Part shown: positions 6,863-51,616 of the stretch, one piece after another | How positions within the stretch are numbered: the stretch's first letter is position 1 | How the letters are laid out: each line of letters starts with the position of its first letter | DNA from: a virus | Reading direction: 5' to 3' (one strand) | IMG/VR virus record: IMGVR_UViG_3300025669_000044 | Coordinates: 1-51,765 of that record | DNA length: 51,765 bases | Program-made: the position numbers and the translations under genes | Notes under the pieces: generated by a model | The model's input: only the letters and a program-made list of their open reading frames with translations | Told to the model about the DNA's origin: nothing | Databases searched by the model: none

Positions 6863-7804
6863 CTACAAATGACTATTTAGTTCGTCTAAAGAACAACTTT
6901 CTGCACCGGATTTTAAAGCTACGATTCCTGCGGCCACATTAGCGATACACGCACTTTCATGTAAGCTAAGACCATTTGCTAACGCTAAAGTAAATGTAGA
7001 TATAACGGTATCACCACAGCCTGTTACATCTACAATCTCTTTCTTCTCTGCTTTTAAATGAGTGCTATTAATATCGTCTGTATAGAATAACCCATTCTCA
7101 CTTAATGTTATAAGCACATTATTAAACTTGAACATTACTAATAACTCTTTAGCGAGTTCAAATGAATCCTTATAATCATATAGCTTAGTTTTAAAAATAT
7201 TCTCTAGCTCTTTTAAATTTGGTGTGATAGATGTATAATTAGAGAAGCAAGAAATATCTCTCTTCTTTGTGTCAACTGTGATAATCTTATCTTCTTTTAA
7301 AGCAAGTTTACCTATAAATACTGCTAGTTCTTCATTAATCATACCTTTATTGTAATCAGATACTATTATTGCATCAAAATATTTAACATGTCTTATTAAA
7401 TTTTCTTTTACTTCCTCTAGTTTAAAATTATTAAAACAAATATGTTCTCTGTCAACTCTTAATAGATGTTGATTATCTGCAATATATCTTGTCTTTTTTG
7501 TAGTGATAACCTTTTTATCTGCTATTAATAGATTTGTATTAATTTTATTTTCTTGTAATAACTTTATAACTTGAGTACCTGCAATATCTTTACCTATCTT
7601 TCCTATAATCCAAACATTAGAACCAAGAGCTGTTAGATTTTTAGCCACGTTAGCACACCCACCTAATTTATATTCACCTGATTGTTTATTTAATATAGGA
7701 ACAGGTGCTTCTGGAGAGATGCGTGATACTGAGCCTCTAACATACTTATCAAGCATTAAATCGCCTATGACAAGTATATTCTTTTTGTTTAGTTTATTTT
7801 TCAT
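6863..7804 (-). CDS. hldE: D-glycero-beta-D-manno-heptose-7-phosphate kinase (RfaE/HldE kinase domain)
   Basis: 313 residues, PfkB carbohydrate kinase. GDLMLDKY at 14-21 followed by SRISPEAPVPI is the diagnostic RfaE block, and VTGCGDT near 260-266 holds the catalytic Asp265. The length matches the kinase half of HldE; the nucleotidyltransferase half is absent. The reaction phosphorylates heptose-7-phosphate at C1 for ADP-heptose, the lipopolysaccharide inner-core precursor. It implies a Gram-negative host and possible phage remodelling of surface sugars or nucleotide-sugar pools. Confidence 0.9.
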   Translation of the reverse strand: MKNKLNKKNILVIGDLMLDKYVRGSVSRISPEAPVPILNKQSGEYKLGGCANVAKNLTALGSNVWIIGKIGKDIAGTQVIKLLQENKINTNLLIADKKVITTKKTRYIADNQHLLRVDREHICFNNFKLEEVKENLIRHVKYFDAIIVSDYNKGMINEELAVFIGKLALKEDKIITVDTKKRDISCFSNYTSITPNLKELENIFKTKLYDYKDSFELAKELLVMFKFNNVLITLSENGLFYTDDINSTHLKAEKKEIVDVTGCGDTVISTFTLALANGLSLHESACIANVAAGIVALKSGAESCSLDELNSHL

Positions 7805-13543: not shown

Positions 13544-15304
13544 TTATTTGCCAATTACAGCTAACGGTTCTCCGTCATCTTCTTCTACTATTGAAAATAC
13601 AAATCCTGCTAAACAATCTGAAACATCTTTTGAACCATGATTGATGCCCTCTTCTCTCATTCTCCATTTACTAGCTTTAGGGTGGTCAATCTTATTTTTA
13701 TCTGTAATAAGCAATTCTGTTAGCTCTCTTATTGCAGGTGGATAAAGATAATAATTAATATCTCTTTTATATATAAAATCTTTGAGTGTATCATAGGGAC
13801 CAGTATTTTTCTCTAAAGAAATAATCTTTGCACCTATTCCGTTTTTCTCGCAGATGTTTAAAAATAGTGCTGAGTTCCATCCATCAGCGGTTACTTTTAT
13901 AATAGGGAACTTCAACTTTTTAAATAACTTTGTAATAACAAATTCTAATATTTCGTTTAAATCAATCTCTTTAGACTTATCTTCAGATTGAGGAGAGCGT
14001 ATCTGTAACATTAAATCAACATAGATTTTGGTTTTATCTAATATGTGATAAGTGTGTCCCATAGAAAGTCCCGCACAATCAACTACGCCTCTAGAAAGGT
14101 CAATATGTACATAATACTGAGCGTTTGAGTGCTTTTCTTTCTCAAATTTAATTTTCTGTGCTAACTCTTCTGAAGGATTCTCTTCATAATCTCTTTCCAT
14201 TACTTCTATTTCGTGAGTATGATATGGTCTAAACCAATGTTCTAGTTCTTCGTCCATTATATTATGTGTCCAGAATCTATTTAACGCACTTTCATTATTG
14301 TTTTCTTCTAGTATAATAGGAGACTCTCGCTCATAGTTAATACAATCTGTAATTCTATCGGCTCTCTTAATAAAGTTATTCGCTCTATACTTCGGTATCT
14401 TACATTCATACATTAACATTGCTGTGGAAGGGTCCTCGTCGAACTCTTCTTTATAAGTTTCTTTGTGTACTGCGTATTTCTTTATTTCGGGTAAACAAGA
14501 TTTATCTGACCTAATATCCCAAGTGGCCGCTCTATCACAATAAGTCTTTGACATATGTCCATCTTCTGCTCTATCTAAAAGATAAGACATGTAATCATTC
14601 GGCGAAGTCAAATAAGAAATATAAAATAATTTATAATGTTTAGGACAACGTGTTCTTGCTGATGTTCTAATATGTTTTCTTATATTCTGTGCTTGGTCAA
14701 ATCTAAAAGTTCCAATCTCATCAAAGATTCCTAGAACAACATTCTTACCCTCAGATTTTGATTCTCTAGAGTTCATAGACCACGCTCTAATGTTCTTTGG
14801 AAATAAAATAGCATTACGAATAATATCTCTTTCAATATTCATGCCTAATTCTTCAAAGAAATTCTTTCCTGTAACAGGGTCTATTGTCTGACTAACCATT
14901 CTTACAAATTTCTCAAAAAATACAGATTTTGCTTGGTCAGCATCAAACGCAACATTAACAACGTCTATAGGTTCACCACTTTTAATGCCTAATGTTTCTT
15001 GCGGGTCATTTAGACAACATAACCAATAAATGGTATAACATAAAAGACAGGCAATAGTTAAATCTTTTCCTGAGCCTTTACCCCATGCTAATACAAATTC
15101 ATTAAACTTATCACTCAACATTGTATAGTCATTATTAAATGCGGCCGATACAGCTTTTTGCTGTCTAGGAAATAAAGGTGACTTTAGCCAATCTCTAAAG
15201 AATATCTCAGAGGATACAGGTTGAATAGCAAACTTTTTTGACTTGTTTACTACTTTCTGCTCTGCATCTTCCCAGAAATTTTCCCAATTCTTATTATCTG
15301 CCAT
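13544..15304 (-). CDS. terL: Terminase large subunit
   Basis: 586 residues. The ATPase domain has Walker A WGKGSGKD near 74-81 and Walker B LGIFDEIGTF with Asp195-Glu196. The RNase H-like nuclease domain has YVHIDLSRG (Asp402), TADGW (Asp474) and KDVSDCLAG (Asp560/Asp563). This is the DNA-packaging motor. It lies between the TerS-like gene and the portal gene, the classic packaging order. Confidence 0.93.
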   Translation of the reverse strand: MADNKNWENFWEDAEQKVVNKSKKFAIQPVSSEIFFRDWLKSPLFPRQQKAVSAAFNNDYTMLSDKFNEFVLAWGKGSGKDLTIACLLCYTIYWLCCLNDPQETLGIKSGEPIDVVNVAFDADQAKSVFFEKFVRMVSQTIDPVTGKNFFEELGMNIERDIIRNAILFPKNIRAWSMNSRESKSEGKNVVLGIFDEIGTFRFDQAQNIRKHIRTSARTRCPKHYKLFYISYLTSPNDYMSYLLDRAEDGHMSKTYCDRAATWDIRSDKSCLPEIKKYAVHKETYKEEFDEDPSTAMLMYECKIPKYRANNFIKRADRITDCINYERESPIILEENNNESALNRFWTHNIMDEELEHWFRPYHTHEIEVMERDYEENPSEELAQKIKFEKEKHSNAQYYVHIDLSRGVVDCAGLSMGHTYHILDKTKIYVDLMLQIRSPQSEDKSKEIDLNEILEFVITKLFKKLKFPIIKVTADGWNSALFLNICEKNGIGAKIISLEKNTGPYDTLKDFIYKRDINYYLYPPAIRELTELLITDKNKIDHPKASKWRMREEGINHGSKDVSDCLAGFVFSIVEEDDGEPLAVIGK

Positions 15305-20006: not shown

Positions 20007-20434
20007 TTCTTCTTTCCTTTTTTCTCGCATTGTCTTTCTATGTTTCTTATGATACGAGTAAACTTTCTTACTAATCTTTCTTCTTCATTTTTAAGTAATT
20101 TTCTCTGCTTCTTTACATTAATAGATTTCTTATTCTTTACCCTATCTAAAATGTTATCCATTCTACTTGTCAAAGAAGTCAATAGTACATGCCAAAATTC
20201 ATGTATAATAGAATCTCGTAAAGATGCTACAGACTTATTCATTTTACTATTTACATTGACATTAAAATCTCTACCATCAAACTCATAGACAACCTCAGCA
20301 TAAGTATCTTTCTTATTGACTACCTTAACATTGATAGACCAATTCTTATTTAGACGCATCTTATTCTTATACTCAACGAATAACTCGTCTAGAACTTTCT
20401 TGAAAAATTCTCTGCTGTCCTTATGTTTACTCAT
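20003..20434 (-). CDS. HExxH zincin-like protein
   Basis: 143 residues. DSIIHEFWHVLL holds His78-Glu79-xx-His82. A conserved Arg/Glu-rich helix follows (EEERLVRKFTRIIRNIE) and may carry the third ligand. No export signal. It lies between the M16 peptidase and the nuclease gene with ATGA overlaps. Confidence 0.65.
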   Translation of the reverse strand: MSKHKDSREFFKKVLDELFVEYKNKMRLNKNWSINVKVVNKKDTYAEVVYEFDGRDFNVNVNSKMNKSVASLRDSIIHEFWHVLLTSLTSRMDNILDRVKNKKSINVKKQRKLLKNEEERLVRKFTRIIRNIERQCEKKGKKK

Positions 20435-21588
20435 TTTTTCTTTCTTGGTAGAATTGCAACTAACTTACTATTGTTGAAGTTTATTCTTTTAATAAAGCTG
20501 TTTACTTCTTCTAGAGAAATATCGTTAATAGACTTCTCATAATCTCTTAGATAAACATTATAATCTAAATTGCTTAAAGAACAGTCAATTAAAATTCTAG
20601 CAATATTAGACGGCTTATCAATACTTAATTCATGTCCACCTAATAGTTTGCCTCTTGCAAAATCTAATTCTTCTTTAGATACAGTCTTTGTTAATTGTTC
20701 TAGCATAAGCTTTTTTGCAAACTGAACTTTTTCTGGTTTTAAACCTGCAAAGCCACAGTATTGAACAGTTCCACAACTATGTTCCTGCATATATAAAGTA
20801 GTATTATATACTAAATTATTTTGTTCTCTAATAACTTCAAAGAATCTCCCACAAAAACCATTAATTACAGAGGAAAATAAATCCATAATCAATCGCTCTT
20901 TCATAGTATTAATATAAAATAGACCTGTTAATACCATGTTGGCTTGACTAATATCATTTCTATACTCTATGACATCTTTCTTATCATAAGTGATAGGCTC
21001 TTGTGCAAATCTAGAGGTAATATAAACTCTGTTTCGTGCCTCTTCTGCTGAACCACCAATCTCTAGCTTAATAGCGTTCTTATAATATTTATTATAATAT
21101 TCAATCAATACATCTCTTGTAATACCTGTAACACTTTCTCTAGTTCCAATAATAGGAATGTGAAGATTCGAGCCATCAGCAAAGATTTTACTCTGAGCTA
21201 ATTCAAATACTGCTGACTGAGGATTATCTTGATACATTTCTAATTCCTGCAAAACTACTTGTTTTTCTTTTTCAAGTTCTTCTGCTGGAAATATAGAATT
21301 TTCTACCATATCATCTATAATCTTTCGTGCCTCAGATACATATTTATTGCTAATAACAACATAGAAAAATGTATGTTCTTCTGAAGTCCAAGCATTAAAC
21401 ACAGCACCATATTTATCTATAGCTTGTTTAATCTCTGTCATGTTGCGAGTCTTAGTTCCTTTAAATAACATGTGTTCTAGAAAATGCGAGATACCTTTAA
21501 TATCATCGGGCTCATTACGAGAACCTACAGGAATAAATGTACCTACGATTGTTGATTTGCCTTCTACTCTAATCTTAATGTTAGCCAT
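20431..21588 (-). CDS. M16-family zinc peptidase
   Basis: 385 residues. GISHFLEHMLFKGT at about 33-46 contains the inverted zinc motif His35-xx-Glu38-His39, and a downstream Glu near 115 (VVLQELEMYQDNP) is the third ligand. The PVGSRNEPDD and FNAWTSEEHTFF blocks are also typical of YmxG/PqqL/mitochondrial-processing-peptidase relatives. The protein covers one M16 unit pair (about 400 residues). No signal peptide, so it should act in the cytoplasm. M16 enzymes are rare in phages; the target is unknown. Confidence 0.85.
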   Translation of the reverse strand: MANIKIRVEGKSTIVGTFIPVGSRNEPDDIKGISHFLEHMLFKGTKTRNMTEIKQAIDKYGAVFNAWTSEEHTFFYVVISNKYVSEARKIIDDMVENSIFPAEELEKEKQVVLQELEMYQDNPQSAVFELAQSKIFADGSNLHIPIIGTRESVTGITRDVLIEYYNKYYKNAIKLEIGGSAEEARNRVYITSRFAQEPITYDKKDVIEYRNDISQANMVLTGLFYINTMKERLIMDLFSSVINGFCGRFFEVIREQNNLVYNTTLYMQEHSCGTVQYCGFAGLKPEKVQFAKKLMLEQLTKTVSKEELDFARGKLLGGHELSIDKPSNIARILIDCSLSNLDYNVYLRDYEKSINDISLEEVNSFIKRINFNNSKLVAILPRKKK

Positions 21589-36756: not shown

Positions 36757-37980
36757 TCAAGTATAGCACACTTTCTCTGCTTTGTCAAGTTTTATTTTTC
36801 CCTCTAATTTTAAATGTGGTATAAAAAATAAACAAGCAAATGTAAATATCGCTGATATAATAACTAGAGTATTAAAACCAATCATATCATAGAGCAAACC
36901 CCCTATATAGCCTGAGCCCATTGCACCTAAGTTTAGTACAGAGCATAACATAGCAAATACGATAGCTTCATAGCCTTTTGGTGTAGTCTTTGCAACATAA
37001 GCTAATAACACTAGATGAGATACTGCGCCTACTGTTCCCAATATAATACTATAAGCTAATAGCCACCATTGATTCGGAATCCACAAATACCATAATGTTG
37101 ATATACCACCAAAGATTACAGAGAAATATAATAATTTTTTCATATTACATTTATGAAATTTAAAGAAGTATAATATATAACCAAGTATACCAAAGACTGT
37201 ACCTGTTGCGCCTAGTAAGCCAATCATCATCTTATCCATGTGCATAGTCTCTCGCATTGTAACCATAAGCGGTGTTCCAAAAGACGGTGATAGATAATAA
37301 AAGAATAAAAATGCTACAGGTATCGCTAACTGTTTATTAAATACTACTTTAACAAATTTTAGTAGTTGAGCTTTATCTAATTTCTTTCCCTTTGCATCGG
37401 GTTCTTCATATTTTGTTATAAGAAATATAACCATAAATAAAGGAAAGATAGCACAAATTAAAAATGCTAATCTATAATCAAAGTATTTTGAAATCCATGC
37501 ACCACCCAATGATGTAATAAGACCTGCTAACGAAATCGCTGTCCAAGATATTGCCTGAAGCTTACCCTGTAAATTATGTTTTTTCTCTAATACACAGACT
37601 AAACCATCTGCTCCAACATCTGAAAATGCAAAAGCTAATCCTGTTAAAAAGCCTGTCAAAATTAATGTATGAACTGTCAATCCAAATATTGCTACTAACA
37701 TGCTTATAACAAATATGATGGAGTAATTTAATATCAACCAATATTTACATTTCTTTTTTAATAATGGAAATGAATCAACAATAATACCAAATAAAGGTTT
37801 GATTGTCCAAGGAATTGTTATGATACAACCAATTAATGCTATGTTGGCTACTGACAAATGCCATACTTCTCTTTGAAGATAATATAACGGAGCAGACTTC
37901 AATCCCCATATACCTTGTAAGAAGTATACAAAAGCAAAAAATATATATGTTGTTATTGGTATTGCTTTATTCTTTAACAT
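36757..37980 (-). CDS. BT1-type folate/pteridine transporter (major facilitator)
   Basis: 407 residues with about 12 transmembrane segments. ITIPWTIKPLFGIIVDSFPL and FAFSDVGADGLVCVLE match the BT1/folate-biopterin family signatures (PWxIKPLxGxxxD; DvxaDalvve). An inner-membrane carrier; the likely substrate is folate or a pterin, but other small molecules are possible. The C-terminal 13 residues are encoded by a promoter cassette. Transporters are very rare in phages. Confidence 0.78.
   Translation of the reverse strand: MLKNKAIPITTYIFFAFVYFLQGIWGLKSAPLYYLQREVWHLSVANIALIGCIITIPWTIKPLFGIIVDSFPLLKKKCKYWLILNYSIIFVISMLVAIFGLTVHTLILTGFLTGLAFAFSDVGADGLVCVLEKKHNLQGKLQAISWTAISLAGLITSLGGAWISKYFDYRLAFLICAIFPLFMVIFLITKYEEPDAKGKKLDKAQLLKFVKVVFNKQLAIPVAFLFFYYLSPSFGTPLMVTMRETMHMDKMMIGLLGATGTVFGILGYILYFFKFHKCNMKKLLYFSVIFGGISTLWYLWIPNQWWLLAYSIILGTVGAVSHLVLLAYVAKTTPKGYEAIVFAMLCSVLNLGAMGSGYIGGLLYDMIGFNTLVIISAIFTFACLFFIPHLKLEGKIKLDKAEKVCYT
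36760..36788 (-). promoter_or_regulatory. Sigma70-type promoter (leaderless gene downstream)
   Basis: TTGACA at 36783-36788, 17-base spacer, TATACT at 36760-36765. The whole promoter also encodes the last residues of the transporter upstream (KIKLDKAEKVCYT). Confidence 0.87.
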
Positions 37981-44210: not shown

Positions 44211-44427
44211 CTTCTACTCTTTTCGTTAGTTCTTCTCCGTTGAGTTCTAAATATTTATCATTATTTTGTTTCTTTAAGCACGTTAATACACTTCTTAAAC
44301 TTTTAATCTGTCTCTCTGCACCTCTTTCTAAGAAGGCTTTAAAATCCTTTTCATTGGCCAATACAAATAGCCAATAATAATAATTCGAGGGTAGCTTTCC
44401 CATATATATATAATTTCTTTTTGTCAT
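44185..44427 (-). CDS. Small helical unknown protein
   Basis: 80 residues, helical and charged (SNYYYWLFVLANEKDFKAFL). One-base overlap with the upstream gene stop. Confidence 0.58.
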   Translation of the reverse strand: MTKRNYIYMGKLPSNYYYWLFVLANEKDFKAFLERGAERQIKSLRSVLTCLKKQNNDKYLELNGEELTKRVEDAYTKFKE

Positions 44428-46848: not shown

Positions 46849-46912
46849 GGGCGAGGACGGTATAGCGAAAGGTTGAGCTGTTGGGGGTTTAGCTCGAAGA
46901 ATACCGCCCTCT
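46849..46912. ncRNA. GC-rich nested inverted repeat, possible structured RNA
   Basis: Outer arms at 46855-46863 and 46901-46909 (nine pairs with one wobble on the minus-strand RNA) enclose inner arms at 46873-46879 and 46891-46897 (seven pairs with one wobble on the plus-strand RNA) and a loop with five G or C in a row. It is far richer in GC than its surroundings and lies in an 86-base gap with no gene. Not a match to an RNA family I recognise. Confidence 0.45.
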
Positions 46913-46917
46913 TAAAT

Positions 46918-47726: not shown

Positions 47727-47755
47727 AGTATAGCACATCAAATCGTGTTTGTCAA
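47727..47755 (-). promoter_or_regulatory. Sigma70-type promoter with GCGAAAGGGG leader
   Basis: TTGACA at 47750-47755, 17-base spacer, TATACT at 47727-47732. Confidence 0.86.
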
Positions 47756-51056: not shown

Positions 51057-51081
51057 TTTGTTTCCCCTTTCGCTTTTGTCA

Positions 51082-51110
51082 AGTATAGCATAATTTTTTT
51101 CGTTTGTCAA
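51082..51110 (-). promoter_or_regulatory. Sigma70-type promoter with GCGAAAGGGG leader
   Basis: TTGACA at 51105-51110, 17-base spacer, TATACT at 51082-51087. Drives 51056 downward. The 51057-51413 stretch holds this promoter, motif copy 5, a second promoter and the GC-rich array, but no gene I can support. Confidence 0.86.
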
Positions 51111-51147
51111 ATTTTATTTTTTCTTTCTCAATTCCCTGTGTAATGTC

Positions 51148-51173
51148 CTCTATCAATATCATAAAATCTATTT
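51148..51173 (-). promoter_or_regulatory. Copy 5 of the recurring motif
   Basis: Contains the 17-base core at 51153-51169 and matches copy 4 over 26 bases. It lies between the two promoters at 51082 and 51243, with no clear gene of its own; a 27-codon frame starts inside it and runs into the promoter at 51082. Confidence 0.6.
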
Positions 51174-51242
51174 AAGTTTATCGCATGGGTCCCCTCTCTA
51201 TTACTGTCCAAATTCCACAAGGTATCTTGTTTGCTTTTTACA

Positions 51243-51271
51243 AGTATAGCACATCAAATTCGTTTTGTCAA
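51243..51271 (-). promoter_or_regulatory. Sigma70-type promoter without an obvious gene
   Basis: TTGACA at 51266-51271, 17-base spacer, TATACT at 51243-51248. The first 130 bases downstream hold no gene of normal length, so it may make a leader RNA or feed the next promoter region. Confidence 0.84.
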
Positions 51272-51318
51272 GTGCCCTGCAAAAGATAATTTATGGCTGT
51301 GTTGCTCCTCATTGTTTT

Positions 51319-51392
51319 CCTGCGCCTGCGTGCCTGCGTGCCTGTGCCTGCGTGCCTGCGCCTGCGTGCCTGCGTGCCTGCCTAGGCCTGCG
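51319..51392. repeat. GC-rich minisatellite (CCTGCGTG / CCTGCG units)
   Basis: Units run CCTGCG, then CCTGCGTG twice, CCTGTG, CCTGCGTG, CCTGCG, CCTGCGTG twice, CCTG, CCTAGG, CCTGCG. About 70% GC in a genome near one third GC, immediately followed by an AT-dinucleotide run. Neither strand encodes a convincing protein. Confidence 0.9.
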
Positions 51393-51457
51393 AGATATTA
51401 TATATATATGCAATTATTTTATATGCTTAAAATATACTTTTTTGTGATATCTTTTCA

Positions 51458-51616
51458 TTATTTATTATCCTTATAATCGGCATACCATAAAGCCAATTGA
51501 AAAGCATTTATATTATAGCATTTTGCTATATAATCAATAGCATCTATTAAAATGTATTCTTTTGAAAGTAAAACATCAATATCTGAAAACGCATCATTTT
51601 TTTCTATGCCTGTCAT
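51458..51616 (-). CDS. Small unknown protein
   Basis: 52 residues with ATG 51616 after AAAAAAGGAGCTTTAAT. Acidic helical (SDIDVLLSKEYILIDAIDYI). A 14-codon frame overlaps its stop by TAATG but is too short to call. Confidence 0.55.
   Translation of the reverse strand: MTGIEKNDAFSDIDVLLSKEYILIDAIDYIAKCYNINAFQLALWYADYKDNK

Follow-up and report, generated by a model that had tools for sequence, protein, structure and literature searches.

What is a short tract of strongly GC-rich tandem repeats doing in the genome of an AT-rich tailed phage, and how did it arise? The tract occupies positions 51319-51392 of the window, by which we mean the whole 51765-base virus record analysed, a sequence without end repeats. 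A first-pass annotation had offered four readings (a replication origin, a packaging or terminal site, a protein-binding array, a recently gained foreign tract), and this interpretation was partly supported. The array is real and recurrent: similar intergenic arrays of GC-rich 6-8-bp units occur in unrelated phages. The explanation that we favour, with about an even chance of being right, is that of a slippage-born minisatellite kept in the spacer upstream of a promoter, possibly as a supercoil-sensitive or protein-binding upstream element.

The array and its surroundings

The window encodes a PolA-type polymerase, a DnaB-like primase-helicase, a UvsX-like recombinase, TerL, a portal protein and an RtcB ligase, and nearly all of its genes are directed leftward. 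No named phage is close; the closest DNA polymerase matches in named phages have approximately 25% identity. A DNA search of the array locus against named phages gave no match, and neither did a search of the array against plasmids, where the low-complexity filter of BLAST may hide one. No relatives were found through the nearest protein (DUF7659). The phage also carries cargo that is unusual at its size, a BT1/MFS transporter (36757-37980), a PfkB-type carbohydrate kinase (6863-7804) and an M16 peptidase (20431-21588). These genes, together with a sub-threshold GcrA match, do not settle the host.

The coordinates given by the first-pass annotation proved exact. The 74-nt array (CCTGCGCCTGCGTGCCTGCGTGCCTGTGCCTGCGTGCCTGCGCCTGCGTGCCTGCGTGCCTGCCTAGGCCTGCG) is built of CCTGCG and CCTGCGTG units, which read CGCAGG and CACGCAGG in the sense of transcription. 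CCTGCG cores start at eight positions (51319, 51325, 51333, 51347, 51355, 51361, 51369 and 51387), with variant cores inside the array at 51341 (CCTGTG) and 51377 (CCTGCC). All five copies of CCTGCGTG present in the window are within the array. Unit steps of 8+8+6 result in a higher-order period of 22 bp, and the 22-mer of the array had no match in 100 dinucleotide shuffles of the window. Short units thus follow each other head to tail beyond chance, as in a minisatellite. The GC content, described previously as about 70%, was computed to be 75.7%, compared with 30.5% for the whole window; the array is 7.7 SD above the mean of 74-mers, and the next GC-richest 74-mer has 52.7%.

The array is located in a 347-nt spacer (51111-51457), the longest of the window without a minus-strand ORF of at least 40 aa. 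The claim that this is the longest gene-free stretch holds at that cut-off but not at 30 aa. Upstream of the array lies a 52-aa ORF (51458-51616, minus strand), and no terminator was found between the two. The annotated alternating AT run (TATATATATAT, 11 nt) was found to adjoin the array at 51399-51409; the window contains one other run of this length, at 44402. The two promoters noted beside the array were also found, both on the minus strand. The strong leftward promoter at 51243-51271 (TTGACA-N17-TATACT) is separated from the array by 48 nt, the array being upstream. The second promoter (51082-51110), of the same type, precedes the DUF7659 gene (Pfam PF24692; 50628-51059, minus strand), which is downstream of both. 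Each matches the consensus at 11/12 positions and has an extended -10 element. The DUF7659 ORF as listed reaches a TTG at 51110, but translation more likely starts at the ATG at 51059. About 16 near-identical leftward TTGACA-N17-TATACT promoters with extended -10 (TG) and a common transcript start are distributed across the window, including those at 51271, 51110, 50014, 49655, 47755, 46366, 44817, 41337, 36788, 32457 and 28879.

A coding repeat was rejected, since there is no plausible ORF at the array on the gene strand; the plus-strand ORFs that cover it (51231-51476 and 51265-51447) are open mainly because the array has no stop codons. The array RNA did not fold better than shuffled sequences (z between -0.76 and -1.30) and had no match in Rfam. 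With no terminator either, an RNA hairpin or terminator was likewise rejected.

GC-rich repeats adjoining an AT-rich stretch in the longest spacer, next to a promoter, could also represent an iteron-like replication origin, in which an initiator would bind the repeats, the AT-rich stretch would unwind and the promoter would be activating. The direct repeats beside an AT-rich stretch are indeed there, in both this phage and the sister phage described below. However, no initiator was recognised nearby (among the five nearest proteins tested only DUF7659 was recognised, and other small genes are unassigned), the repeat units have not been conserved between phages of approximately 85% identity, and the unit size differs from that of classical iterons. 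We consider an origin very unlikely.

The position of the array, 373 nt from the contig end, with the sister array likewise near the end of its contig, would fit a packaging or terminal site. Such sites are expected close to the terminase genes or where the genome physically ends, but terL (13544-15304) and the portal gene lie at a distance of approximately 36 kb, and each of the two contigs ends within a gene and lacks terminal repeats. The right ends of the two contigs cut through genes or their start signals, therefore closeness to the contig end does not mean closeness to the genome end; the physical end may lie beyond the contig. This reading is not supported and is highly improbable.

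A homologous array in a sister phage

The first-pass annotation had proposed a search of relatives. One relative is G001 (IMGVR 3300025362_000013), a sister phage of 48157 bases that is syntenic with the window, with aligned blocks mostly 73-89% identical. The last well-conserved block ends at window position 47739, and beyond it gene content differs. The counterpart of the 51271 promoter was nevertheless identified in the sister at L139 6960, and the promoter flank TTGTCAAGKGCNCNGCAAAAGAT was found in no IMG/VR contig other than that of the sister. Upstream of this matching promoter, at L139 7371-7430, the sister has a GC-rich array of its own (CACCTGCGCCTGCCTGCGTGTGTGCGTGTGCGTACCGGCGTGCCTGCGTGTGCG). 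Alignment of the two arrays gave a score of 55, whereas 1000 dinucleotide shuffles of the array averaged 30 and reached at most 54, and both arrays have the same left boundary, CTCA[TA]TGTTT. The units of the homologous array are different. The most likely history, as judged from the sequences, is that the array was present in the common ancestor of the two phages and that its units have since turned over. The distance from array to promoter also changed, being 48 nt in the window and 410 nt in the sister.

Because the sister contig was assembled from another metagenome and carries a homologous, diverged array at the matching locus, an assembly or adapter artefact, the case that the first-pass annotation had named as refuting, was ruled out, and a recent foreign gain was rejected on the same evidence. 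The extreme base composition had spoken for a foreign tract, and so did the comparison with bacteria: the 21-mer GCCTGCGTGCCTGCGTGCCTG was found at 89 places among 84,980 genomes of bacteria and archaea, and at none of these places (0/89) do the flanks have less than 47% GC, which makes the GC contrast in the window exceptional. In view of the sister array, a foreign tract or an artefact has a practically negligible probability. Taken together, the readings as an origin, a packaging site or a foreign tract have weak support or are contradicted.

In both arrays the alternation of purines and pyrimidines exceeded that in all of 5000 shuffles; the sister array contains an uninterrupted alternation of 21. 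Such alternation is a property of Z-prone DNA.

Two further relatives contributed little to this comparison. G002 is 99.98% identical to the window and covers only 8099-34149, which does not include the array locus. G023 (70 kb; DNA polymerase 62% identical) lacks a CCTGCG array, but since the window beyond 35 kb is almost without counterpart there, it says little on the array locus.

Other features of the sister region were observed as well. In its long spacer (L139 7100-7640), AATAGTAATAG-like repeats with many stop codons abound, and there is a second small GC patch (GTGCCTGCACAGGCGTACCTAGGCG, L139 7267-7291). The gene transcribed from the matching promoter (L139 5966-6878) encodes an anti-restriction protein of the ArdC type, with ArdcN and zincin domains, and is absent at the corresponding place in the window. 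Elsewhere, the two phages share a conserved 5'-leader-like element, GAGGGCGGTATTCTTCGAGCTAAACCCCCAACAGCTCAACCTTTCGCTATACCGTCCTC (window 46850-46915 and L139 4470-4535, both minus strand), which folds better than shuffled sequences in both (z about -2.5). One pair shows a compensatory change (C-G to U-A type) from one phage to the other, and Rfam gave no match. The element looks like an undescribed structured RNA.

Similar arrays in other phages and in bacteria

IMG/VR was scanned for three CCTGCG with 0-2-nt spacers. Among the matches listed there were many coding repeats, but also many intergenic arrays in contigs of moderate GC content. In all 20 array contigs examined among these matches, every copy within a contig has the same strand orientation; the copies typically cluster in a short stretch, and the backward-read motif is nearly absent. 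In related phages with CCTGCG arrays the core hexamer is constant and the spacers vary, although this constancy was partly built in, CCTGCG being the scan pattern. When 29 array contigs (among the matches listed) were compared, 25 formed one protein-linked lineage and three another, with one standing alone. The window phage is not a member of the 25-contig lineage, as tblastx of the window phage against the 29 contigs gave no match. One member of that lineage, L204, has distant DNA matches to the Pelagibacter phages HTVC023P and HTVC027P and to Phage DSL-LC04. The genes near the arrays of this lineage, recognised from translations, are presumably terS-like and VRR-NUC nuclease-like genes.

The surroundings of these arrays are polarised. 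Just downstream in the G-rich direction, a sigma70-like promoter with at least 9/12 matches was found for 12 of 38 non-redundant arrays (scanned contigs, among the matches listed), compared with 2.3 +/- 1.3 expected from shuffles and none on the opposite side. In the clearest of these cases the array abuts the -35 element. TATAT or ATATA is commoner on the far side (22 vs 11 of 46), where terminator-like hairpins were also seen by eye. In the 25-contig lineage (CGCAGG)n is often directly upstream of predicted promoters with fixed polarity, which within one lineage may be inherited. The Z-DNA alternation is not typical of its arrays (for example CCTGCGACCTGCG).

The contigs L014, L204, L221, L168, L182, L163 and others represent a phage lineage with several strand-fixed CCTGCG arrays in each contig, beside promoters and close to the terS-like and VRR-NUC-like genes. 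The repeat seems to extend into the 3' end of the nuclease gene in both L204 and L221. GC-rich repeats of another motif, resembling CACGGGCC and CCAGGGAG and with 78-85% GC, lie between terL and the next gene in Phage DSL-LC04 (L265 14541-14991), and an array of nearly 1 kb composed of CCTGCGTG, CCTGCTG, CCTGTCTG and CCTGCCCA is located at 33.1-34.0 kb of a 68.8-kb IMG/VR contig (L114).

In a control scan with the reversed motif GCGTCC, 20/120 loci were outside long open frames, compared with 29/119 for CCTGCG (among the matches listed in each case). The control yielded intergenic 7-8-bp arrays, including TTGCGTCC units in AT-rich contigs, and L334, a contig of the main lineage, uses CCTTGCGT. 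This indicates that the general phenomenon is that of GC-rich 6-8-bp arrays, not of CCTGCG alone.

These results bear on two further explanations. Each CGCAGG core could be bound by a regulator, of the phage or of the host, or by a nucleoid protein acting on the 51271 promoter, with copy number setting the strength. The constant core with variable spacers, arrays touching the -35 element in several related phages and a 22-bp period near two helical turns all speak for such binding. On the other hand, the core hexamer belonged to the search pattern, no candidate regulator was identified, the units of the sister are eroded (TGCGTGTG) and the promoter distance changes. The protein-binding array of the first-pass annotation thus gained from the similar arrays directly upstream of promoters in unrelated phages and lost by the erosion in the sister; we regard it as possible but improbable.

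Alternatively, the array may be a functionless product of slippage, found beside promoters only since compact phage genomes have their spacers there. Fast turnover of the units, motifs that differ between phages and the sporadic CCTGCGTG arrays in bacterial genomes are consistent with a neutral minisatellite. The fixed polarity to promoters in the other lineage, with no promoters on the other side, argues against neutrality, as does the persistence of the array in both sisters despite their compact genomes. A purely neutral array therefore appears unlikely.

Possible role and likeness to known systems

A slippage-born minisatellite retained upstream of the promoter would have originated from a CCTGCG-containing seed that expanded by replication slippage or unequal recombination; as no copy-number variation was observable within one population, we infer the slippage. 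The array would then have persisted because the spacer that separates a small gene from a strong leftward promoter tolerates or uses it. If it is functional, it would most likely act as an upstream cis element of the promoter, G-rich when read in the sense direction. As supercoil-sensitive (Z-prone) DNA, it might insulate the promoter from the preceding unit, both from its transcription and from its supercoils. Such a cis effect, by insulation of this kind or by protein binding, is plausible. The minisatellite with a possible cis role is preferred because of the 22-bp tandem period, the rearranged homologue at the matching promoter of the sister, the excess of alternation in both arrays, the same-polarity promoters at unrelated arrays and the absence of an RNA fold, terminator or coding role. 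Counting against it are the promoter distance, which was not kept, the motif-selected scans, the arrays obtained with the control motif, the possibly inherited polarity, and the Z-DNA alternation, which is not a feature of the other lineage's arrays.

A bolder version can be imagined, in which CGCAGG-type arrays form a promoter-upstream regulatory class that arose more than once (in AT-rich and in marine-type lineages), is read by a conserved host factor or by supercoiling and tunes the promoter by copy number. We think this distinctly unlikely.

Little has been described of intergenic minisatellites upstream of promoters in phages, whose genomes are compact; the open-access literature searched, of incomplete coverage, yielded no published description of such arrays. 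Because similar arrays recur beside promoters in unrelated phages, they can be tested as a class and are not an isolated curiosity. Should they tune or insulate promoters, phages could quickly adjust gene expression through changes in repeat number. If they are neutral, they would mark slippage-tolerant spacers, and base composition alone would not identify foreign DNA.

Among known systems, the bacterial and viral minisatellites (short sequence repeats) resemble the window array in their short GC-rich tandem units, higher-order period and fast turnover. Bacterial arrays of the CCTGCGTG octamer differ in lying in GC-richer flanks, whereas the window array is in 30% GC DNA; unlike the bacterial copies, it is also upstream of a phage promoter and has a homologue in a sister phage. 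Theta-type iteron origins resemble the window array in combining direct repeats with an adjacent AT-rich stretch and a promoter, but their units are about 17-22 bp, in contrast to units of 6-8 bp here that are not kept in the sister and have no initiator found with them.

The marine-type CGCAGG arrays (L014, L204, L221, L163 and related) share with the window array the core hexamer with 0-2-nt spacers, a promoter in the CGCAGG-sense direction and AT-rich TATATA on the far side. Those phages have several arrays per genome, often at the -35 element, and terminator-like hairpins beyond them. In contrast, the window has one array, no terminator-like hairpin was found on its far side, and this array lies farther than about 25 nt from the -35 element, as does that of the sister. 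Perfect tandem repeats, abundant in each genome and concentrated in intergenic DNA, have been described in Borg elements and giant viruses (PMC12660748). The window array is likewise an intergenic tandem repeat, but it is single and imperfect.
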